NCBI GenBank assembly: GCA_015501585.1
Contig: JADNRY010000165.1
Location: forward strand, 80,292 to 144,291
Length of the DNA stretch: 64,000 bases
Source of the DNA: Rhodocollybia butyracea
Lineage: Eukaryota; Basidiomycota; Agaricomycetes; Agaricales; Omphalotaceae
Direction: 5' to 3'
Part shown: piece by piece, positions 19,277 to 60,397 of the stretch
Numbering within the stretch: the stretch's first letter is position 1
Layout of the letters: the number at the start of each line of letters is the position of its first letter
Made by a program: the position numbers and the translations under genes
Notes under the pieces: model-generated
What the model was told of the DNA's origin: nothing
Database searches by the model: none
Seen by the model: only the letters and a program-made list of their open reading frames with translations

Positions 19277-22057
19277 TTAGGGTATAGGGAGACAGAGAAA
19301 GGAGTAAGGCTTACCATTTCTGGATTTAGTTGGCGATTTAGCCACGGTAGTCAAGCTTTGAAGGCATTGTGTGTACTCCAACAGGTTTCCAATCAATTCA
19401 AATTGAATTCCGGCCTCTTTCAGCAGCTCAGTAGCATCATTGTAATCATTTTGCATCTTAGAAATATTGCCCAAGCTTCGGAGGCATTGTGCATAACCCG
19501 ATTGGTTTCCAATTGTTTTAAATTGAATTTTGGCCTCTTTCAACAACTGTTTGGCATCATCATAATCATTTTGCATCTTGGAAATATTCCCCAAGCTTTG
19601 GAGGCATTGTGCAGAACCCAACTGCAATCCAATTGATTCAAATTGCATTTTGGCCTCTTTAAGCAGCTGTTTAGCATCATCATAAATTCATAATCATTTT
19701 GCATGATGCAAATATCTCCCATGCTTTGGAGGCACTGTGCAGAACCCAACTGGGATCCAATTGAATTGAAATGAATTTTAGCCTCTGTCAACAGCTGTTT
19801 GACATCATTGTAGTCATCTTGCATCCTGGATATTTCCCCCAGGCTGTGGAGGCATTGTGCATAACCCAACCAGTTACCAAGCATTTCAAATTGAATTTTG
19901 GCCTCTTTCAACAGCTGTTTGGCATCATCATAACTATTTTGCGCACTAGAAATAGTCCCCAAGCTTTGGAGGCATTGTGTAGAAGCCAGCGGGTGCCCAG
20001 GTGATTGAAATTGAATTTTGGCCTCTTTCGGCAAATGTTTAGCATCATCGTAATCACTTTGCATCCTGCAAATATTCCCCAAGCTTTGAAGGCATTGCGC
20101 ACAACCCAACTGGGATCCAATTGACTCAAATCAAATTTTAGCCTCTCTCAGCAGCTGCTTGGCATCATTATAGTCATTTTTCATATTGGAAATATCCCCC
20201 AAGCTTTGGAGGCATTGTGCAGAGCCCAATTGGTTTCCGATTAGTTCAAATTGAATTTTGGCCTCTTCTAGCATCTGTTTGGCACCAACATAATCATTTT
20301 TGCATGCTTGAAAATATCTCCCAAGCTTCGTAGGCACTGTGCAGAACCCAACTGGGATCCAATTGATTCGGATTGTTTCTTTGGCCTCTTTCAACAGCTG
20401 TCTGGCATCATTATAATCATTTTTCATTTTAGAAATATTCCCCAAGCTTCGGAGGCATTGTGCAGAACCCAACTCTGATCCAATTGATTCAAATTGCATT
20501 TTGGCCTCTTCCAGTAGCTGTTTAGCATCATCAAAATCATTTTGTATCCTGGAAATATCCCCCAAGCTTTGGAGGCATTGTGCAGAACCCCGCCGGTTAC
20601 CAATTGATTCAAATTGCATTTTAGCCTCTTTCAGCAGCTGTTTGGCATCAGCATAATTATTTTGTGCACTGGAAATATGTGCCATCCTTTGGAGGCATTG
20701 TGCAGAACCCAACTGGTGTCCAAATGACTCGAACTCTGCTTTGGCCTCTATCAATAGTTGTTTGGCATCATCATATTTATCTTGTATCCAGGCAATCTCA
20801 CATAATCTTTGGAGGCACTGTGCATTTGTCTTACTTTTTCGGTCCCTGTTGATAAGCTCATTGAATATTCCTTCCCTTCTCATAATTGATTGGATTGTTT
20901 CAATCTCTGATACTGCTCCTTCATAAGCTGCCAACCATCTCAATGCCTCTTCCTTCCTAAACCTGAGTTTGATTTCTTCCTCAAATGTTTCATCCCACTC
21001 CTGCGTTAATGCGGCATCAATCAAACTTACGGTCATGGAAAAGAACCAGGCTCGTATGCTCCAACAATTGCCGAAGAGCATTCAAATATCTTCTGTCTGT
21101 TTCCTTGGCCAGCTGGACTCCAAAAACCTTTGTAATGTTTGGCATATGCATTTCAAGCACCTTTTGGTCCTTACCATCGGTCCCATGATCATATGTAGAT
21201 AGTAGTCTCCCAGTTGCATTAAATGAATGGTGCTGGCCGGGTATCACAACAGTAAATGTTCACGGATTGGTGATAGCATCCTCAATGCTTCATTCTGTTG
21301 ATACACCAAGGCTGAGTTGATCATTGCAACCACTGAGTGTATATTTTGCCCCGGGACAAACTCTTGGATATTCTTCTGCCAAAAGGGTATGCCACTTGGA
21401 AGGAAAGATATTGTTGCTAGGAGATCTCGAAAGTCCATGTTTTGTCTTTCAAGCAGTTGAACAGACAAGTCCACAGACACAGCAACACTAGTTAACCTAG
21501 TTTGATGTGGGCCACATTCTAACACTGCTGTTTTTGTCTGCTTCCATTGTTTGATCAAAGGTTCTAAGCTTAGATGTTTTTGGATGAGGCTAGAAGTCTC
21601 TGAGAGAATCTCACAAGGAATAAAATAAATCTTATCCCTAAAGTATCCTTGAACACTTAGATTCTTCATGATGTGCAAAGCAAGAGCTGTTTTGCCTATT
21701 CCTCCTGCTCCTAAGATGGCTAGATGGACATTTGATTCCTGAGTCAATTTAGTAACCGCCTCAGTGACCAAGTGATCTCTGCCAGTAAATACTGTGGGAG
21801 CACTGGGTGTGAACAACTTGATAATCCTAGATGGAATCAAATGAATACAGGGCCCAGTCATAATGGACCACTTACTCGTAGGCTTCACGGACACCTTTCT
21901 TCTTTAAATTTAAACTACCAGAATCGATAACTTGAATGAACTGGGAGTTGGTGATAGTGAAATCCCGAGAGCAACTAAACATCGACACTGGACTAGTGAT
22001 TGTTAATGATGGTTTAGGTTCAAGAGGCAATTCTCCCAAGTGCCTGGCACCTGACAT
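19277..22057 (-). pseudogene. NB-ARC-TPR STAND (NLR-like) gene, decayed
   Basis: The upstream frame (to 22057) has SRDFTITNSQFIQV, resembling the short N-terminal motif before fungal NLRs. Frame 21244-21894 contains TVFTGRDHLV, Walker A LGAGGIGKTALALH, and, near its end, LRMLSPIREHLLL, as in Agaricomycete NB-ARC proteins. A TGA follows at about 21244. The linker and TPR part resume at 21081 and run to 20131 with units like SAQCLQSLGDISRIQNDFDD. Damage: CAA-to-TGA at 20131-20133; two offsetting indels around 20290-20370; an 8-bp insertion near 19682-19690 that shifts frame; and a final frame ending at 19277. Such genes sense non-self or damage signals in fungi by analogy with plant and animal NLRs; that role is inference. 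Confidence 0.8.
19330..20850 (-). repeat. Tandem TPR-coding array, about 13 units of 120 bp
   Basis: The motif GGAGGCATTGTGC (plus strand) or a close variant recurs at about 19365, 19485, 19605, 19728, 19850, 19970, 20090, 20210, 20331, 20451, 20571, 20691 and 20811. Each 40-codon unit carries the TPR pattern A-Q-C-L-Q-S-L-G...D-D-A-K-Q-L-L-x-E-A-K. Confidence 0.9.
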
Positions 22058-35280: not shown

Positions 35281-35470
35281 TCATCTTCCCTCTTGAGTCA
35301 ACTCTCTTGATAAGCAATGTGAGTGTATGCACAACTCAAGACGCGGGACACTCCTATCCGCATTACCGGCGATAATATGGAAAGCAAGAAGGGCCTGCCA
35401 CGTCGGATCATGATTTTTGACATAGCCGAACTGATGGAGCCAAATCGAGACATGGACCTCGGGCACCCGT
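35281..35470 (-). pseudogene. Gene fragment shared with 50.06 kb
   Basis: The minus-strand frame contains EVHVSIWLHQFGYVKNHDPT and WQALLAFHIIAG. The same stretch occurs in opposite orientation at 50062-50152, where it is interrupted by a stop. The family is not recognised; it may belong to a transposon-encoded protein. Confidence 0.45.
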
Positions 35471-35929
35471 TATTATTATGTAAATCTCTTACTATTTATT
35501 CATATTCTCGTTTGTCAAGATGATAGGCTTTGTGAGCGGGAGGTGATTATGTTCGCTCTGCCACAGCAAAGTCATGTGGGTGCATCTGCGGCACGGGTCC
35601 CGGCTGTTCTTTGTAGAACGAGAACCTCATGTTGAAACTAGATTACCGCTTATGAGTCGTATCTAATCAGTAATGTGAGTCGACTAGACACACTTGCTAT
35701 ATGATCGATGAACTGTCGATATATGCTATGTTGAAACTCACCCTCAAACACTAGACGCAGCCTCTACGCAGGTTCGTATAGATGTAGTCAATTATGCCAT
35801 TCGCTATTAGTCTTATGATACATAGCTTGTACGCTGACTTGCAGTACCTATGAACATTACCTATAGAATTACCATACGGACTCCATCTTCTAGGGTACAT
35901 TATGCACATGTATATGCACTATGTTTAGC

Positions 35930-36589: not shown

Positions 36590-38590
36590 ATCATCAGGAA
36601 AACCGCCCACAGGAAATATTTGCTAATTTCAGCAAAAATATCGAAAATTTGTAATAATTATTGTAATTTCGGAGATTTCTGTCATTTTAGTAATTACACT
36701 AATTCCACAGTCCCCTTGCGTCTTTGCAAAACTTTCCCCAGCTTTTCTGCCTTTGCTCAATTCTGTGAATAAGCTTTCAAAAATTAGAGCATCATTCTTA
36801 CAAAATCTGCATATTTCATAACCTTAGAACATACTTAATGGTTATGTCACAAGAGTCAAAAGTCGAAAAAGCATTACATTGCATTCACTAGAAGTATTAC
36901 AACGAGTACTACCATGAGTACCACTACTATCTACTACCATATAATACAGAAGACGTTATGAGAAAACAAGTGGTCACAGAGTGTCATCACATCTGACACG
37001 GCCCCAACACATCGTCAATAAACAAGGAAATGGTCACAGTGCATGAGGGCAGGAATGGTTGCGAGTGTCGTTAGTGCATATGGAGCTATAGAAATGTTGT
37101 CAGTAGGGGGAAGCGGCGATGAAAGTATAGTACGTACATTAGCAGCAAAAATAAACGATGGGGCTATAGCGACTCCAGCGAGGACTGTCAAATATGGTCT
37201 GAGAAATGAGACACATGTAGAAGAGTATTACCATACCTGAAGATGTCCATTAGTTGAAGTGAGCCACATGAGCTTGAGCTATGAGATATGAGAGGCGCAG
37301 CTATGAGCAAATAAGAGAAAACATACACGCCAAGGCCCAAAAGGTTCTAACAAGCAGCGAGATCCATTCCCAGCATTAAGTAGCGCAAAGTCAACTTTAG
37401 GTACAACAAGTTGGCAGCAGCAATGAGAAATTTGAGTGATGATGACTTATGTAGAGAGATAGAGCCTGAGTACTGAGTGGATGGGGGATGGGGGAATGGA
37501 AAAAGAGGGAGTCGTACAACATTTATTTTGATACCATGGGATCATGTGATCTCCCACGCATGAGCCAAGCATTGAATTTTCGACTTGTGCTGCGTGCACG
37601 TTTAATGGTACCGCGCCGGTTCTTCCTTCCTTCCTCTGTAATTCTTTTGGCTGTTCCTCGCTACTGGGACCGCGCTGGTTTTCCTTCTTTCCTTTTTCCA
37701 TGTTTGATGCTGAGCAGCTGGATGCTACTGAGTGGCGAGCAAATTAGGCATGCAAATTGACACATCAGAGAGCTGGTGATGGTGAATGATGATGGCAAGC
37801 TGGAGAGTGGGCAATGACGACTCCAACAGGTGACGACCTGTAACGACAATCAAGCTCAGGCTTGCCGTTAGTGTATGTAATGCATTCGAACATCCAAACT
37901 GAGTCGGCAACTTTCTTGCCCATCTGTTCCTGCTTTTAAGGTGCATGTACTAATATTCTCATTTGGACTGCCTAGCTCAGAAGCATCATCAGGAAAAGCC
38001 GTTTTTGCCTGGGTGACCCCAGAGTGGCCTAAAGTAAACTAGGTGACCTATGAATCCTATGGCATCCTAGGAATTTGGGCTCGTCCCTTGCCAGTCAAGG
38101 CTCTTGAGGATTCCCTAGGGTATCCTAGGCAAACCCATGCCCAGGTTTGCCCAGGTGCTCCCCAGGTGTTCCCCAGGAGCACCTGGGCAAACCTAGGCTT
38201 GCCTAGGGAATCCTCAAGAGCCTTGACTGGCAAGGGACAAGCCCAAATTCCTAGGATGCCATAGGATTCATAGGTCACCTAGTTTGCTTTAGGTTACTCT
38301 GGGGTCACCTAGGCAAAAACGGCTTTTCCTGATGATTACTACTCTGCCTCAGATGTGTGACTCTAATTATGAACAGACAGTGAAAATTGCCAAAAGTTCA
38401 TGAAACATTCCGAAAATTTTGAGATGCTTTCTGAAAATGTTTAATAATTATTTGAGGGGTTGAAAGTTGTGGAAATAATTGAAATCTACAGTATTTTTTA
38501 TAATTACCATAAGCCTAGACACGTTTACATTCTTTTTAGATTCTTTTTACAAATTATTGAATATTTTGTGTGGGAGGTTTTCCTGATGAT
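36590..38590. mobile_element. Possible terminal-inverted-repeat element
   Basis: The left end ATCATCAGGAAAACCGCCCA and right-end inverse ATCATCAGGAAAACCTCCCA match over about 22 bp, followed by AT-rich subterminal DNA. The interior has no transposase and contains a foldback element (37985-38336) whose own ends also start ATCATCAGGAAAA. No target duplication is evident. Confidence 0.45.
37985..38336. mobile_element. Foldback element, copy 1
   Basis: This 352-bp near-perfect palindrome has arms of about 165 bp starting ATCATCAGGAAAAGCCGTTT and a short centre at about 38160. Because the arms are inverse, the same frame (MTYESYGILGIW...) appears on both strands; it is not a gene. A second copy lies at 46869-47213. 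Confidence 0.9.
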
Positions 38591-46203: not shown

Positions 46204-46868
46204 ATTGGATAAAGAAGGATGATGAGTAGTTACAAGAGACAACAAGGTACTACATGTACATACTATGTAACATACAGAGAAAGGACTGAACAGCCAAAAT
46301 CCAACATTATCTACCTAATACTTACTCATTTACTTACTATTGAAGTGCTTACAGACCCAGTAGATATCTTGTAAGTATATAAGGCCTGGTACCAAGGCCA
46401 AGGCCCAAGCACTATAGAACTAGTATCCACCTATCCTGAAGTTGTACGAGCCTCACAGTTCTGGCGAGTCCCCATTGCACCAATTACCCAGAAACACCGA
46501 AACAGTAAACGGAATGGTAAATATCACCACCGTACAGTTGAATGTTTACTTTGAGAACATGAATATCGACTTGTAAACTTGTAAACATTAATAAGTAGCA
46601 ATAGATTTACATAATAATAACTGTTATGACCTATATCCAAATTCTATGCCCCCACCTTTTTTCTGTTATTAACCAACTCCCACTCTCATTAATATTTCTA
46701 CTTATCCCACTATACTTACACTCATTACCTCGGATACTGCTGGAAACATTGCTGCACTTTGCTATGGAAACAGTTACATAGCCTATCATGACATTGACTC
46801 ATTATTGTTCTTGTATTTCACATGAACAGCCCACATCAATCATGCACAGCCATCTTGATGTCTACATC
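46204..46868. other. No supported gene
   Basis: AT-rich; TATATAAGG at about 46376 looks promoter-like. No coding was recognised. Confidence 0.45.
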
Positions 46869-47213
46869 AACATTAGGAAAAGCCATTTTTGCCTAGGTGA
46901 CCCCAGAGTGGCCTAAAGCAAACTAGGTGACCTATGAATCCTATGGCATCCTAGGAATTTGGGCTCGTCCCTTGCCAGTCAAGGCTCTTGAGGATTCCCT
47001 AGGGTATCCTAGGCAAACCCAGGGCAAGCCTAGAACCTGGGCAAACCTAGGCTTGCCCTGGGTTTGCCTAGGATACCCTAGGGAATCCTCAAGAGCCTTG
47101 ACTGGCAAGGGACGAGCCCAAATTCCTAGGATGCCATAGGATTCATAGGTCACCTAGTTTGCTTTAGGCCACTCCGATGGGGTCACCTAGGCAAAAACGG
47201 CTTTTCCTGATGA
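46869..47213. mobile_element. Foldback element, copy 2
   Basis: Same palindromic element as 37985-38336, about 345 bp. Its arms differ slightly and its left terminus is eroded (CATTAGGAAAAGCC). The two-strand mirror frames are again an artefact of the palindrome. Confidence 0.9.
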
Positions 47214-47414
47214 ATGACTTACAGCTGATTAGGATATTCTAGCACATTTTCAAAAAAAACACTCAGTAGTGATTTTATTTACAACCAAACAAAGTGATGT
47301 CAGCATATTCCATTCAAAGCTCCATTCGCTCCGCTTCGCCAACACTTCACCCGTACTTGCATTACTCTCAGTATGTTCTTCAGTAGCCCAAGAAATGAGT
47401 CTACAGCACCCTAT

Positions 47415-47569
47415 TGTTGGTTAATAAAGACTCCTAGACTCTTAGATGGCTCTGAGATGGCGGTTCAAGACTACTATTAGATTGTTATCAAGGGTTGTAG
47501 TTACACATCATTTGTATATATGTGTTTGTCCACAGCCTCGATTGAGCAGCCCAGGATAAATATCCAACA
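47415..47569 (-). repeat. 3' LTR of gag-only copy 1
   Basis: Identical in plan to the other LTRs but lacks one 11-bp GAGATGGCTCT repeat. Confidence 0.9.
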
Positions 47570-47617
47570 CTCCCCCTCTGCGAAACAAAGAGAGCTCCCC
47601 CTAAGCTATAAATATAA

Positions 47618-48715
47618 TCAAGCATGAAAATCAATATACTCCTCCTCTTCAAAGGGTGGACAAGTAGGATGAGCAGAAAAACCATAAGTATCAATAGGAG
47701 CAATGAAATGTGAAGAGATGTTATTGGGAGGATTGTGAGTGATGTGCGCAGTGTCATATGTGCGGTTAAGACACCAGTGCTTGACTTCCTCTGGCATGTC
47801 CTTGACACAGTTAGAAGCCTTGTGCGACATACCTCCACAACGGTGACAGCCATCCATAGACATATCGCACCAGCGATTTCCGCGACTGTCTATAAATCCT
47901 TGTCCATCTTCATGGCCGCTTCCATTGGAAGCTCCCCCTCTTCCTCCCCCTCTACCACTAAAACTTTCCCTAGTACCAGATCCATTCTGACTTCCTCCTT
48001 TACTTCCCTTTCGGAAAGCTGTAGCATAAGCATGAGCAGCCTCTACACGGGAGGATGGTTCAGATGGGTTATTAATCCCATCTAAAATTTCATCGGCTCT
48101 CTTCTCAGGGTCAAATGAAACCATAGCACTCTCAAGAACAGTGCGGCAGGTTTTAAGATTGGGCTCGCCAGTAGGTTGGGCGAGAAGAGATGTTTTCCAG
48201 GCCTCGAATGATGAATGAAGGTTCTGGAGCATGATATCCTTGTGATAACTATCAGAGATTGTTTCACCGGAAGGGAGTAGTGCCTGAAGACGAGCACGCA
48301 TATCATCCAAAGCATCAAGATAGACTTTGGTTGGTTTAAGCGGATCATGCGTAATGCGGTGATAGGCAGCACGTGTAGCTGAACGTGAGGAAAATGATGA
48401 TTTTTCAAAATAGGAGACAAGTGCACTCCAGATTTCGGAAGCATTTGTCTTATCCTTGTAGATGTTTCGGCAGTCTCGATTAGTGAGGGATTTAATGATG
48501 GACGCAGCCTGTGAGTTGAGTCGATCCCATTCCTTGGCATCAGCAGCCTCTGATGGACGTGAAGTCAACCCTGTGGCAATCTTGGCGCTCTGACCATCTG
48601 CACTAAGCACCATTTGCAGAACATCCTCTTTCCAGTTGCTCCAGTCATCAGCATTTGTAGTGGAAAGTAGGGGAATGTTCCTTCCAAGATTAAGAAGAGC
48701 TGAAAGTGTGGCCAT
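47618..48715 (-). CDS. Copia-type Gag (copy 1)
   Basis: Uninterrupted 365-residue frame encoding the capsid-like protein of the gag-only element. An N-terminal UBN2-like region runs from NADDWSNWKEDVLQMVLSAD through EWDRLNSQAASIIKSL and SEIWSALVSYFEKSS to about residue 220. It is followed by a Gly/Ser/Arg-rich linker (GRGGGRGGASNGSG) and a zinc knuckle CHRCGGMSHKASNC (C-x2-C-x4-H-x4-C) near residue 295, then an acidic C-terminus. The stop is near the purine tract and 3' LTR. It should bind and package element RNA (known for Gag proteins). Movement would need enzymes supplied by a full-length relative, which is not in this window. Confidence 0.9.
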   Translation of the reverse strand: MATLSALLNLGRNIPLLSTTNADDWSNWKEDVLQMVLSADGQSAKIATGLTSRPSEAADAKEWDRLNSQAASIIKSLTNRDCRNIYKDKTNASEIWSALVSYFEKSSFSSRSATRAAYHRITHDPLKPTKVYLDALDDMRARLQALLPSGETISDSYHKDIMLQNLHSSFEAWKTSLLAQPTGEPNLKTCRTVLESAMVSFDPEKRADEILDGINNPSEPSSRVEAAHAYATAFRKGSKGGSQNGSGTRESFSGRGGGRGGASNGSGHEDGQGFIDSRGNRWCDMSMDGCHRCGGMSHKASNCVKDMPEEVKHWCLNRTYDTAHITHNPPNNISSHFIAPIDTYGFSAHPTCPPFEEEEYIDFHA

Positions 48716-48843
48716 AGTGAATGAATATGAGTCGTTGAAAAGGGATTGGGGATGGGATGATGAAATGAGTGAGATTGAGTGATTGGGTGAAAAGTAAAGC
48801 TCCTAGATGATGAATAAAACTCCTAGATGTATAGTGTGGACAC

Positions 48844-48856
48844 GGGGCCCATAACC
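48844..48856 (-). other. Primer-binding site, copy 1
   Basis: GGTTATGGGCCCC directly follows the 5' LTR. It is complementary to the anticodon stem-loop of initiator tRNA-Met. Confidence 0.75.
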
Positions 48857-49022
48857 TGTTGGTTAATAAAGACTCCTAGACTCTTAGATGGCTCTGAGAT
48901 GGCTCTGAGATGGCGGTTCAAGACTACTATTAGATTGTTATCAAGGGTTGTAGTTACACATCATTTGTATATATGTGTTTGTCCACAGCCTCGATTGAGC
49001 AGCCCAGGATAAATATCCAACA
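48857..49022 (-). repeat. 5' LTR of gag-only copy 1
   Basis: 166 bp, TGTTGG...CCAACA. Confidence 0.9.
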
Positions 49023-49208
49023 CCTATGATGTATGTCTCATGTAAAGACGGCAATATTGAAAGAAAAAAGTTGCATTTGAAGTCAACGCGTATGGTAAGA
49101 TGCGGCCAGTACGCGTGTGAGTCACCTACATCAATGTCACCTTTGTTTGGTTGTAAACAAAATCACTCATGAGTATTTTTTCGAAAATGTGCTAGAATTT
49201 CCTAATCA

Positions 49209-49440
49209 GCTGTAATATCAATTATTGCACAGCCACCTTACATCAATGACTCGATATCAATCATTGCACAGCCGCCTTACATCAATGACTCAATATCAAT
49301 CATTGCACAGCATTCCGCAGTCAGGCTGACTGATCCACAGCATTTCCGCAGTTATGACTCAAAACTAGTCATTCCGCAGCATTTCCTAACTAGTACATAT
49401 CAAACAGTATATAAGAAGGCTAGATTTACCAATGTATGGT
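49209..49440 (+). promoter_or_regulatory. Repeat-rich promoter-like region
   Basis: Two and a half copies of a 39-bp unit (ATATCAATCATTGCACAGCC...TTACATCAATGACTC) are followed by CATTCCGCAG-type repeats and TATATAAG at 49408. This resembles the U3 part of an LTR driving transcription rightward into the hairpin array. A matching LTR was not found. Confidence 0.45.
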
Positions 49441-49515
49441 AAATGTATTATTTTTCTTAAATCCAAACCCCCACTTGTTTGCTGTTATCACTTGTGTGAA
49501 TCACCAGACCAACTC

Positions 49516-49873
49516 ATTGTATCTTGTTGAGCTATCTCCAAGCTACAATACACATTTATACATCTTGTTGAGCTAACTCCAAGTTGTATCCACTAACATT
49601 CACCTGTTGAGCTATCTCCTAGTGAATACTTCTCTAATTGCCACTTGTTGAGCTATCTCCGAGTTGCAACTTCCTATTACTTGTTGAGCTATCTCTGAGT
49701 ATTAGACATCACACTCACTACTACTTGTTGAGCTATCTCTGAGTATTAGACACCACACTCACTACTACTTGTCGAGCCATCTCCGAGTATTAGTTCTGAT
49801 TCACATTACTGCTTGTTGAGCCATCTCCAAGGGTAATCTTATTATTATTTGTTGAGCTATCTCCAAATAATAA
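49516..49873 (+). repeat. Array of nine hairpins with conserved loop
   Basis: Units at 49516-49549, 49558-49589, 49598-49627, 49638-49669, 49674-49705, 49718-49749, 49762-49793, 49805-49837 and 49842-49873. Each has a 12-nt loop close to TTGAGCTATCTC, closed by CTTG/CAAG or wobble variants (CTTG/CGAG, CTTG/TGAG). Outer stems differ between units yet pair within each: ATTGTA/TACAAT, ATACA/TGTAT, ATTCAC/GTGAAT, TTGC/GCAA, ATTAC/GTAAT, TTATTAT/ATAATAA. The G-T pairs are compatible with RNA pairing only for a plus-strand transcript. No coding frame crosses the array. Confidence 0.85.
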
Positions 49874-50061
49874 CTTCTGATTACAAACTAGTTACTAACT
49901 TTACTTGAGCCTAGTTGTTTGAGTATATATTTTTTGCCTAGCGGTTTCATTGAACAGAAAGGCTTGCTCTATAATCTCCATTAATTTCTCTTATCATTGT
50001 TACCACTGAGTTATGTACTGTGAAGGTTTGGACAAGACTATTGATTGAGTCATAACAATAA

Positions 50062-50152
50062 CAGGTGCCCGAGGTCCATATCCCGATTTGGCTCCATCAG
50101 TTTGGCTACATCAAAAATCATGATCCAACATGATAGCAGGCCCTTCTTGCTT
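50062..50152 (+). pseudogene. Second copy of the 35.4-kb gene fragment
   Basis: Inverse to 35385-35470. It reads EVHIPIWLHQFGYIKNHDPT and then a stop. Most differences from the other copy are CG-to-TG or CG-to-CA changes. Confidence 0.5.
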
Positions 50153-51351
50153 TCCATACGATAATGCATCCGCCATCCCGCGATGTTTGAGGAACTTGCA
50201 GGGATTATTCCAACATTTCCAGGACTCAATCCCAGGGAAAATTGCATTGGGCCAGATATAGTGAAATCGAGTAAGATCGTGGAATGTGTCAGGAGATGTC
50301 AATAAACTACCACGACAGATTAGGTCCGAAATATGAGCGGTTTCAGATATTTTTTCTGCTCACATCGGCTTCCATTGTGCCCCGTCTGTAAATACAATAC
50401 ATTATTCTTGTGATATCGGTTGCGATCATCTGCCATTGACCAGATGCAATAGGTGGGCCAGTATCCAGTTTCTCACTGCACTAAATTGGTTCAAATTTTG
50501 GAATATTTATATTTTTGAGATATGTACTCTACGTAGTGGCTAGCGAGTCTAATAAAGGTAGAGTATATGTATGAGAAGGGTCATTTAAAAGGCCAGCAAC
50601 TAATTGAAAAGATGTCTGTGGAATAAGGGAATAAAGCTAGATAGGACACACATGGCGCTGTAGTACGTTGCATCCAAAATGTACTCTCTGTGACATTTTT
50701 CAGTTGAGATGACCAGTCCTGTTAAGAAAATAACTTACGGGATGCACCAAACGTAGCAGGCTCGCTGAAATAGTACAGTCTAGAGGTCATGGAAAAGTAT
50801 ATGTCAGTTAAAGAAAAACAAAAAGAGTTGATTGATGTCCATACCTCCTTGAAGCCGAACTCATGCTCGCCCATGTTCGTCGAACTCAGCCCACGCTCAC
50901 CCACATTTGTTACTAATTGCACGTCTGTCTTCAATCTGAAGAGCACATGTTGACACATACAGCAAATACTCCAGAAAAAGTTTAAAGGAAAACATGGCGG
51001 GAAAGAAGAAGCAGAGTTGACCTGACAAAACATCAAGCCACTTTATATCTCACAGAGTCACACCATTTGGACCAATTAATCTTGTTGCCATGCTTGTTGC
51101 TCATTTGAGCAGAGAATGTATTGAAAGTAGATGTTGCACACTCTGACCAGAGCAGAACAGATGTATACACATAGCCATATCAGACGAGATATGACTGATA
51201 CCTATTTTGCTTACCTCACTCAGACCTCATTATATTTCAGCATATCTGACCCAAGGCGTTTTTCACTGAGACTCAATGCTGTTAAAAGTTGATGATCTTA
51301 TCATCATTGTGTTATCTATACATTCATGGATTAATGCCGTAACGCAAGCGC

Positions 51352-57463: not shown

Positions 57464-57629
57464 TGTTGGATATTTATCCTGGGCTGCTCAATCGAGGCTG
57501 TGGATAAACACATATATACAAATGATGTGTAACTACAACCCTTGATAACAATCTAATAGTAGTCTTGAACCGCCATCTCAGAGCCATCTCAGAGCCATCT
57601 AAGAGTCTAGGAGTCTTTATTAACCAACA
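57464..57629 (+). repeat. 5' LTR of gag-only copy 2
   Basis: 166 bp, TGTTGG...CCAACA. Confidence 0.95.
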
Positions 57630-57642
57630 GGTTATGGGCCCC
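57630..57642 (+). other. Primer-binding site, copy 2
   Basis: GGTTATGGGCCCC, complementary to the anticodon half of initiator tRNA-Met. Confidence 0.75.
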
Positions 57643-57770
57643 GTGTCCACACTATACATCTAGGAGTTTTATTCATCATCTAGGAGCTTTACTTTTCACC
57701 CAATCACTCAATCTCACTCATTTCATCATCCCATCCCCAATCCCTTTTCAACGACTCATATTCATTCACT

Positions 57771-58868
57771 ATGGCCACACTTTCAGCTCTTCTTAATCTT
57801 GGAAGGAACATTCCCCTACTTTCCACTACAAATGCTGATGACTGGAGCAACTGGAAAGAGGATGTTCTGCAAATGGTGCTTAGTGCAGATGGTCAGAGCG
57901 CCAAGATTGCCACAGGGTTGACTTCACGTCCATCAGAGGCTGCTGATGCCAAGGAATGGGATCGACTCAACTCACAGGCTGCGTCCATCATTAAATCCCT
58001 CACTAATCGAGACTGCCGAAACATCTACAAGGATAAGACAAATGCTTCCGAAATCTGGAGTGCACTTGTCTCCTATTTTGAAAAATCATCATTTTCCTCA
58101 CGTTCAGCTACACGTGCTGCCTATCACCGCATTACGCATGATCCACTTAAACCAACCAAAGTCTATCTTGATGCTTTGGATGATATGCGTGCTCGTCTTC
58201 AGGCACTACTCCCTTCCGGTGAAACAATCTCTGATAGTTATCACAAGGATATCATGCTCCAGAACCTTCATTCATCATTCGAGGCCTGGAAAACATCTCT
58301 TCTCGCCCAACCTACTGGCGAGCCCAATCTTAAAACCTGCCGCACTGTTCTTGAGAGTGCTATGGTTTCATTTGACCCTGAGAAGAGAGCCGATGAAATT
58401 TTAGATGGGATTAATAACCCATCTGAACCATCCTCCCGTGTAGAGGCTGCTCATGCTTATGCTACAGCTTTCCGAAAGGGAAGTAAAGGAGGAAGTCGGA
58501 ATGGATCTGGTACTAGGGAAAGTTTTAGTGGTAGAGGGGGAGGAAGAGGGGGAGCTTCCAATGGAAGCGGCCATGAAGATGGACAAGGATTTATAGACAG
58601 TCGCGGAAATCGCTGGTGCGATATGTCTATGGATGGCTGTCACCGTTGTGGAGGTATGTCGCACAAGGCTTCTAACTGTGTCAAGGACATGCCAGAGGAA
58701 GTCAAGCACTGGTGTCTTAACCGCACATATGACACTGCGCACATCACTCACAATCCTCCCAATAACATCTCTTCACATTTCATTGCTCCTATTGATACTT
58801 ATGGTTTTTCTGCTCATCCTACTTGTCCACCCTTTGAAGAGGAGGAGTATATTGATTTTCATGCTTGA
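57771..58868 (+). CDS. Copia-type Gag (copy 2)
   Basis: Intact 365-residue frame. The only difference I see from copy 1 is Arg for Gln in the Gly/Ser linker (GGSRNGSG versus GGSQNGSG). The UBN2-like region and the CHRCGGMSHKASNC zinc knuckle are unchanged. The start at 57771 lies about 140 bp after the LTR. Conservation of the frame in two independent insertions indicates that Gag coding is maintained, so this is not simply a deletion derivative that happened to keep gag. Confidence 0.9.
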   Translation: MATLSALLNLGRNIPLLSTTNADDWSNWKEDVLQMVLSADGQSAKIATGLTSRPSEAADAKEWDRLNSQAASIIKSLTNRDCRNIYKDKTNASEIWSALVSYFEKSSFSSRSATRAAYHRITHDPLKPTKVYLDALDDMRARLQALLPSGETISDSYHKDIMLQNLHSSFEAWKTSLLAQPTGEPNLKTCRTVLESAMVSFDPEKRADEILDGINNPSEPSSRVEAAHAYATAFRKGSKGGSRNGSGTRESFSGRGGGRGGASNGSGHEDGQGFIDSRGNRWCDMSMDGCHRCGGMSHKASNCVKDMPEEVKHWCLNRTYDTAHITHNPPNNISSHFIAPIDTYGFSAHPTCPPFEEEEYIDFHA

Positions 58869-58916
58869 TTATATTTATAGCTTAGGGGGAGCTCTCTTTG
58901 TTTCGCAGAGGGGGAG

Positions 58917-59082
58917 TGTTGGATATTTATCCTGGGCTGCTCAATCGAGGCTGTGGATAAACACATATATACAAATGATGTGTAACTACAACCCTTGATA
59001 ACAATCTAATAGTAGTCTTGAACCGCCATCTCAGAGCCATCTCAGAGCCATCTAAGAGTCTAGGAGTCTTTATTAACCAACA
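58917..59082 (+). repeat. 3' LTR of gag-only copy 2
   Basis: Identical to the 5' LTR at 57464-57629. Confidence 0.95.
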
Positions 59083-60397
59083 AAATCAAACAGATTCAAG
59101 AACATCTCGATGACCTTCAAGAAGCCGTTCAGGTAGCCTTTCGTATGTGATCATCTAGTTATCCTATAAGCCTTGCTTAGCTTTACGTTTAATATCAGAA
59201 TTTCTCAGTGAAGATCAAGTTCACAAACCGCCACCTGTCATTACACCCTCTATGTCCATCTCTAATCCCAACCGTTTTCTTCCTGTTGACAAACCAGACT
59301 TCACTCTTGGTGAGCTTCAGCTACTCTTGTTTTCCTTCTACATACCTGACGTATCCAGACGAAATCCGCAATGCGTTTGCGTCTCCAGATATGTTTATGC
59401 ACCCAGCAACAGCCGCCTCCACTATCTACGCTCAGGCATCAGAGCCTCACACCATCAACTCATGCGCTCCCAAGCTAGAGCCTCTGGACCCGGGCCTATC
59501 CATCATCCCTGCCATCAACTCGTACGCTCCTGAGTCAAAGCCTCTTGCCGCCGGGGTAGCTTCTAGGCCGGGTTCAAGAGCAATGGTTGGAGGGCTTAAG
59601 GCAAAGCAAGTTTCTTATCCTCAAACCATCCCCCAAATTACACCCGGTGGTCGATTTGAAATGCCAGAGTTCCGACCACCCATTCCGCCACAAGCCTCAG
59701 ATAGCATCCCCACCCTTCCTTCTACCACCGCTCCTGTATCTTCTACAGATGCCTTCGTTGTCTTCCTCGGGATTAACAACTCGTCTGGCGTTTTTCGGCA
59801 CTACCAGTCAACCAGCAACTGCGTCGGTGCCGATTCGTTGGTTCCGCTCACCTTTAAAGGCGGAATTATGATGGGCTTCATGAACTTTGATGCTGCCGTG
59901 AAGCACTTCCAGGAGTGCCTTGCGAGCGGCGTTATCAAGCTCTTGAAAGCCCCAGAGACTGCAAAGACGGTGTATATCGTAACAAAGGGGCGTCAGCCAG
60001 GCGTTTATAGGAGACGGTGAGCTACAAGTTTTCCGTTTGCACACGAGTTTTCAAGTCGTTTCTCTTTCCAGAAGGCATCTGCTTGAAGAAGGTTTGGGCT
60101 ATTGAGGAGGTGAGGGTACGTGGTCTGAGGGAGGCGTTGCTGAGGCTATCGCAGTATTCAAACTCTGGGAAGCAATGGGGCTTGTTGAGCGGCTGGCGTG
60201 GAATAGACCTTTTGTCAAAGAAGAGTTTGTTATGTAGGACGCCCCATATGGGCAAATGCAGTTGAATTGTCTTGCCTTGTATCTGAGAAATAAAACCAAC
60301 GCTGATATCTGAACCAAAATTTTCAATTTTTAGAAGATAGAAACTCCAGCGCGTAAGCTGAGTTGCACCGTACGATCGCACACAATCGCCATACTGA

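Follow-up and report, generated by a model that had tools for sequence, protein, structure and literature searches.

Results

A hairpin array within a solo LTR

An earlier note on this DNA had reported nine consecutive hairpins at 49516-49873 of the window (the whole 64,000-nt stretch that was analysed), and all nine are present there, in an array of 358 nt. The array lies within an LTR that runs from 46622 to 50057 and has ATAAC at both sides; it is a solo LTR with other elements inserted in its U3. BLAST searches with LTRs of the family described below matched the U3 at 46622-46706 (copy L104) and 46622-46728 (copy L106). The features are listed in their order along the window.

46617..46621, no strand: target-site duplication ATAAC, left copy
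46622..46860, plus strand: U3 at the 5' side of the solo LTR, with TGTTATGACC at its start; right edge approximate, at the start of the nested insertion
49216..50057, plus strand: remainder of the solo LTR 3' of the nested insertion, with GAGTCATAACA at its end; left edge approximate (BLAST match 49221-50057)
49408..49415, plus strand: TATATAAG box (TATA) of the LTR promoter, which recurs in family LTRs
49441..49452, plus strand: decayed 12-nt copy of the self-primer, at the putative RNA 5' end; two bases differ from the family sequence AGACGTATTATT
49462..49469, plus strand: TCCAAACC, 5' arm of a long-range duplex around the array
49516..49549, plus strand: hairpin unit 1, stem ATTGTA/TACAAT
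49558..49589, plus strand: hairpin unit 2, stem ATACA/TGTAT
49598..49627, plus strand: hairpin unit 3, stem ATTCAC/GTGAAT
49638..49669, plus strand: hairpin unit 4, stem TTGC/GCAA and inner pairs
49674..49705, plus strand: hairpin unit 5, stem type CTAyTAC/GTAyTAG
49718..49749, plus strand: hairpin unit 6, stem type as unit 5 (CTAyTAC/GTAyTAG)
49762..49793, plus strand: hairpin unit 7, stem type as unit 5 (CTAyTAC/GTAyTAG)
49805..49837, plus strand: hairpin unit 8, stem ATTAC/GTAAT with a one-base bulge
49842..49873, plus strand: hairpin unit 9, stem TTATTATTTG/CAAATAATAA
50025..50032, plus strand: GGTTTGGA, 3' arm of the enclosing duplex, starting 33 nt before the LTR end
50058..50062, no strand: target-site duplication ATAAC, right copy

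The loop sequence TTGAGCTATCTC is exact in six of the nine units, with one mismatch in two units and two mismatches in one; three more two-mismatch sites elsewhere in the window are at chance level. Units 5-7 are near-copies of a single unit. The constant 12-nt loop of the earlier note holds as a core common to all nine units, but the loop itself is probably not open, as its internal GAG can pair with CTC to leave, in the predicted folds, a UU bulge, a short helix and a four-base loop, although these folds often draw only two of the three GAG/CTC pairs. The pairs are invariant among the nine units, and covariation speaks neither for nor against them. The placement of the array downstream of a TATA-like box in promoter-like DNA was correct: the box belongs to the LTR promoter and recurs in family LTRs, on which ground a host-gene promoter was rejected.

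Several other features were observed around the array. Upstream of the TATA box, the U3 carries repeated TGACTCA, TGACATCA and TGATGTCA sites in different mixes, 8-9 per LTR in five copies (L104, L105, L106, L107, and L111) and 3 in the window (49216-49407); we take them to be bZIP/CRE-like. Two 99% identical element copies lie in opposite orientation at 47414-49022, inside the solo LTR, and at 57464-59083; the element, possibly Copia-like, has a gag-like frame with a zinc knuckle, and its terminal repeats of 166 bp contain an 11-bp tandem repeat. A palindrome of about 342 bp (46871-47212; 94% self-complementary), with a relative at 37985-38336, and a pair of inverted stretches of about 75 bp (47219-47294 and 49141-49215; 91%) that flank the nested insertion resemble DNA-transposon ends. 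The 3' flank of the solo LTR (50051-50158) is an inverted copy, 89% identical, of a repeat at 35376-35480, and a 120-bp tandem repeat with 12 copies at 19352-20824 may, at a guess, encode a repeat-domain protein.

Arm complementarity among the units of the window

The stems had been described as different between units and yet complementary within each. We permuted the right arms of the seven distinct units, leaving out units 5 and 7 as near-copies of unit 6, and the true arm pairing is the single best of 5040 permutations, whether scored by in-register pairs (35; permutation mean 20.9), with bulges tolerated (31; mean 11.9), or by folding energy (57.0; mean 34.5). This result confirms the description and rules out a tandem satellite with unchanged stems, as the earlier note had argued. 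Across all nine units, 88.9% of the pairing cells are paired, compared to 77.6 after shuffling; the covariation score of 0.374 (0.179 shuffled) is reached in 0 of 500 shuffles, and both-side changes occur in 6 of 13 pairs (shuffled mean 3.4; 10 of 500 shuffles as high). Since the units are related, these counts should not be read as probabilities. The covariation score falls to at most 0.145 when the partner is shifted by 1-3 columns.

A covariance model of the nine units, which the earlier note had proposed together with a covariation test, recovered seven of them, missing units 5 and 8 at default filters, and found no other match in the window up to E=10. The covariation was borne out, but the number of further pair types was not exceptional (172 of 500 shuffles). 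Whole-leader folding in the window beats shuffles only mildly (z of -1.96 on the plus strand and -1.80 on the minus strand), which counts against a selected RNA structure. There were 0 Rfam matches in the window at gathering score, and a tRNA search gave nothing of use for the array. The noted drift toward G-U pairs that form only in plus-strand RNA is there, but we set it aside as evidence, because CAAG, CGAG, and TGAG are linked by CpG transitions: among 317 right arms of types 4-8 in the genomic copies, 232 begin with CG, 65 with CA, and 20 with TG.

The host element is a high-copy chromovirus

A 16-base core of the array (at most one mismatch) has 1373 forward and 1158 reverse matches in the assembly (95.6 Mb, 1381 contigs), 2531 in all, while the reversed core pattern, used as a control, gives 4 and 3 matches, 7 in all. 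This count suggests several hundred arrays in the genome. Three full copies (L104, L105, and L106) carry the core in both LTRs, in agreement with the suggestion that the array belongs to a retroelement leader; the earlier note had proposed to look for full-length elements with the array after an LTR, and here it lies inside the LTR. The LTRs are 99.8% identical in L104 (700-1923 and 5363-6586, the first 8 bases of the match lying outside the LTR) and in L105, and 100% identical in L106 (885-2136 and 6359-7610).

Family LTRs start with TGTTATGACC and end with GAGTCATAACA (TG...CA). Target duplications of 5 bp are found in eight of the nine copies with both outer ends (L104, L106, L107, L110, L111, L114, L115, and the window), the exception being L105, in which both outer ends were read and no duplication was found. 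The stems are not duplicated target sites, as the target duplications are 5 bp long and lie at the LTR ends. Repeated insertion of a tiny foldback is not supported either: in the copies read, the array is an integral piece of the LTR with its units in fixed order, on which ground an independently mobile foldback was rejected.

The element on contig C481 (L139-L140) scores above the Pfam cut-offs for Retrotrans_gag, zf-CCHC, RVT_1, RT_RNaseH, Integrase_H2C2, rve, SH3_Tf2-1, and Chromo, and protease families fall just below their cut-offs (E of 2e-4 to 5e-4). Its domain order, gag, PR, RT, RNase H, integrase, and a terminal chromodomain, is that of a Ty3/Gypsy chromovirus (Metaviridae). These comparisons place the array in the LTR of a high-copy Ty3/Gypsy chromovirus. 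Measured from the primer-binding site (PBS) to the 3' junction, the elements form several size classes (about 3.4 to about 9.5 kb), and the shorter and the autonomous-size forms have the array-bearing LTR in common. Among the shorter forms, L104 has one long frame without a Pfam match, which we named Gag from an N-terminus in common with the C481 Gag and from a CCHC motif seen by eye, and L106 has Retrotrans_gag in one frame, the frame scanned. A search with Gag residues 760-1148 found five proteins, each from Dendrothele bispora, with 44-52% identity, which makes an agaricomycete fungus the likely host. Searches of prokaryote and viral collections were of no help: two of them returned 73 and 21 stretches, each matching exactly once and taken as chance, and a third returned one stretch and no relative.

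Some copies show unusual arrangements. Shorter elements (C180:173062 and C136:116608, for example) have a second PBS-like sequence of TCATAAAATAATAATACATCTC type (2-3 mismatches), which lies about 2.9 kb downstream of the PBS and about 0.6 kb upstream of the 3' LTR. L112 (C118), a small derivative that lacks internal genes, consists of an LTR, a PBS, and then part of another LTR, which begins within the array. In one autonomous-size element (L121/L148, on C591), the LTRs at the two ends fall in different groups: the 3' LTR has a fused unit 4/5 and resembles L117, and the 5' array is identical to those of C1012, which suggests recombination between elements.

The leader is self-complementary and poor in ATG

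The sequence TAATAATACGTCTC lies directly 3' of the 5' LTR, in the position of the PBS. In L105, L106, L112, and L137 the complementary AGACGTATTATT begins 33 nt downstream of the first base of the TATATAAG box, and the same 33-nt spacing from box to self-primer is found in L113 and L104. The 12-nt complementarity between primer and PBS is exact in five of the six elements whose PBS was read. In L113 there are matched changes on both sides, while in L104 the complementarity is broken, which stands against self-priming; L134, missed by the PBS-reading script, shows both sequences. Because 12 nt near the TATA box are the exact complement of the PBS, self-priming of reverse transcription in the manner of Tf1 is very probable for this element. 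In the predicted fold of the L106 leader, the 5' 12 nt are paired with the PBS and the unit hairpins lie inside.

Leaders were scanned in 36 sequences (the window and L104-L138), of which 22 had the motifs used to mark both leader ends. They yielded 25 rows, among them three LTR pairs and, under two names (W and L109), the window. The TCCAAACC/GGTTTGGA duplex encloses the array and is intact in 23 of these rows, and of the three duplexes of the Tf1-type 'pretzel' the central one and one flanking duplex were identified in the family. A duplex of this type has a shuffle P of 0.027 in L106, and of 0.36, 0.41, 0.90, and 0.80 in the sister families on C567, C1038, C441, and C507. In C567, C1038, and C441 (with a wobble pair) the best complement lies at nearly the same places, each being short and not significant alone; in C507 no complement was found at the corresponding places.

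From the self-primer to the LTR end, the leader measures 505-762 nt and lacks ATG in 17 of the 25 rows, the other 8 having one or two. Shuffled leaders average 8.0-11.4 ATG, and in every row (25/25) 0 of 300 shuffles had as few. The reverse complement, CAT, occurs 8-12 times per leader by direct count. In L106 the first ATG of the leader is the Gag ATG, which in L104 and L105 is preceded by another ATG 4 nt upstream. Local hairpins are in excess in the leaders of L106, L137, C567, and C1038 (0 of 60 shuffles each). The antisense strands are also rich in local hairpins, C567 more so on the antisense than on the sense strand, which weakens the case for a sense-strand RNA structure.

Paired positions are constrained among genomic copies

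We compared 80 arrays, 70 of them distinct, taken from the first contigs and from those most like the window or L117, which is not a random sample. The 70 arrays hold 612 loop-like sites, comprising 585 units with arms of one type, 18 chimeras, and 9 diverged or shifted sites that were dropped. As the copies are related, sites and not copies were the units of evidence. Outside CpG, variants common to at least two arrays are found at 2 of the 122 paired sites in the arms and at 14 of the 40 unpaired ones (Fisher P 3.5e-8), and the mean minor frequency is 0.0027 at paired and 0.073 at unpaired sites, a difference that holds at the ten positions nearest the loop (P 2e-4). Selection for an RNA structure, as the earlier note had proposed, is upheld by this far greater constancy of paired positions.

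Variant cells were counted separately, in alignments of the 5' and 3' parts with 44 and 28 distinct rows and some chimeras kept. Outside CpG, variants occupy 35 of 4056 paired cells, 54 of 1136 in the unpaired arm, 89 of 1816 in the spacer, 18 of 928 in the four-base loop, and 59 of 3124 in the upstream leader, with only 4 of 1336 in GAG/CTC and 1 of 408 in the UU bulge. CpG columns vary more (paired, 20/144 cells; second base of the bulge, 16/56; GAG/CTC, 2/56; upstream, 33/176). Two imperfections of the stems persist: the right arm starts with CG opposite TG, a T-G wobble, in 232 of the 317 units of types 4-8, and stem position 7 holds a Y-Y mismatch in 193 of 195 units. Both fit plus-strand RNA and argue against DNA-level correction of the arms.

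Other observations run against selection on the structure. Compensatory substitution between copies of the window's family is almost absent, the covariation being between units, and one common variant (unit 1 left C to A, 9 of 67) breaks a pair. The 18 chimeric units among 612 have a mean fold of -5.0 kcal/mol, compared to -6.9 to -9.9 by type, and since such units with poorer stems occur, single units are dispensable. As to unit number, 79 of the 80 arrays have 6-12 units, and one fragment has 4. Losses arise mostly by fusion of units 4 and 5, with other types affected too; 44-bp duplications and tandem copies occur, and where the listed arrays are longer, the additional units are of the repeated stem type (units 5-7).

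Sister families carry other hairpins at the corresponding place

Sister loci have an RT 60-70% identical to that of the family. Four of them (C567, C1038, C441, and C507) have primer/PBS complements of their own, of 12-13 nt, and leaders without ATG. In the stretches taken, which may miss the leader, C463 and C1309 show no convincing primer/PBS pair and C1149 shows neither an LTR nor such a pair. The sister hairpins occupy the corresponding leader position with unrelated loops, which fits either family-specific recognition or a pure scaffold. The leaders of C1038 and C441 are 80.7% identical. Between them, 8 of the 112 paired sites in six local hairpins of C1038 differ, as do 18 of the 56 loop sites and 59 of 231 sites outside (paired against the rest, Fisher P 5e-6). 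Of the five pairs that changed, two show double compensation, one stays paired after a single change, and two are broken.

Discussion

In Tf1, Tj1, and their fission-yeast relatives the PBS is complementary to the presumed RNA 5' end, and in the Tf1/sushi 'pretzel' a further duplex joins the PBS-adjoining sequence to LTR sequence just after the self-primer (PMC7175516, PMC4600332, PMC10085805). The Tf1/sushi group (Tf1, Tf2, Tj1, and Tosmo1-3), like the present family, combines a chromodomain Ty3/Gypsy pol with a self-complementary PBS and a flanking duplex. In the present family the PBS complements the element's putative own 5' end, a likeness at the sequence level only, with a self-primer of 12 nt where that of Tf1 has 11 nt. 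A 505-762 nt leader with a tandem hairpin array sets the family apart, none being described for the Tf1/sushi group in the parts of these sources covered (PMC10085805, PMC4600332, PMC7175516). In searches of the open-licence literature, no paper among those listed dealt, judging by title and start of abstract, with tandem covarying hairpins in the leader of an LTR element, which is weak evidence of absence.

The 5' stem-loops of retroviruses and Ty1 are few and unlike each other. The FIV and MMTV packaging signals and the Ty1 kissing loops are structured 5' RNA motifs for packaging and reverse transcription (PMC10726167, PMC8096270, PMC5454406). These systems resemble the present leader in having several structured motifs in the 5' RNA, but they come with Gag-binding, packaging, or structure data, whereas here near-identical tandem cores with different stems are known from sequence alone. 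Long R regions of retroviral LTRs conserve both parts of a stem inside the LTR (PMC3601003), where the conservation is residual, in contrast to tandem copies of one core with exchanged stems. Fungal mitochondrial double-hairpin elements are likewise small foldbacks in a fungal genome (PMC10085805), but they are GC-rich and potentially mobile, whereas the hairpins here are part of a nuclear LTR.

We consider it probable that the array is a set of selected RNA hairpins in a self-priming leader, likely a multivalent motif for Gag or RT. The location, self-complementarity, ATG depletion, and pairing constraint of the array are established by the comparisons of copies above. In the plus-strand RNA, the 5' end would pair with the PBS and TCCAAACC with GGTTTGGA, and the array would fold within this closed primer/PBS domain as about 6-12 independent hairpins, shortening the path from primer to PBS and compacting the leader. 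Each hairpin would display the repeated motif, a UU bulge, a GAG/CUC helix, and a four-base loop, whose most likely use would be multivalent recognition of the genomic RNA, during packaging and formation of the primer, by a putative binder, the element's Gag or RT. Avoidance of cross-pairing and recombination between identical neighbours may be why the stems differ. As for pairing of the loop with distant parts of the element, no complement of at least 8 nt was found in four internal regions. A tentative origin would be the duplication of one protein-binding hairpin, after which selection drove the stems apart while the bulged core was held, so that neighbours neither mispair nor recombine. 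The stem type of units 5-7, the sole type still duplicated, is the one expanded in longer arrays.

The selected hairpins could instead serve as scaffold only, compacting the leader and keeping it off the primer and PBS with the loop unread by any protein, an alternative that we hold to be possible but rather doubtful. Such a role would suit the unrelated loops at the corresponding place in sister families, the 6-12 units that nearly all arrays have, as a spacer would, and a four-base loop no more constant than the upstream leader (0.0194 against 0.0189 per cell). However, the UU bulge and GAG/CTC are the most constant non-CpG parts of the array, beyond what a scaffold needs. That the array tunes translation of Gag, through scanning of weak hairpins or as an internal entry or shunt element, is unlikely: the leader is long and poor in ATG, and in L106 it leads to Gag as the first ATG, but any scanned leader is expected to be ATG-depleted, and hairpins with means of -6.9 to -9.9 kcal/mol would hardly stop scanning.

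Readings without selection on RNA fare worse. Hairpin-templated correction of the arms during reverse transcription would erase the T-G wobbles and Y-Y mismatches that persist, and a neutral satellite would be expected to vary equally at paired and unpaired sites; we regard an origin of either kind as very improbable, even though tandem copies and 44-bp duplications exist and the chimeric units show recombination inside the core. A function at the DNA level, as a palindromic protein-binding site or a cruciform in the promoter, is hardly credible. The core is roughly palindromic by eye and lies near the TATA box, but the array is downstream of the inferred start site, its stem sequences vary between units in a way that sequence-specific binding would not tolerate, and the commonest state, T-G, is a mismatch in DNA; in addition, it is ATG that is depleted, and CAT, by its unshuffled count, is not rare.

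Read as selected hairpins of a self-priming leader, the array ties a high-copy structure to a definite place in the life cycle, between the self-primer and the PBS of a chromovirus. To our knowledge, RNA recognition and priming in self-priming elements have been worked out mainly for Tf1. The many copies provide natural variants with which both processes can be tested, and the family offers a clear case in which paired and unpaired sites among repeat copies separate structural from sequence constraint.
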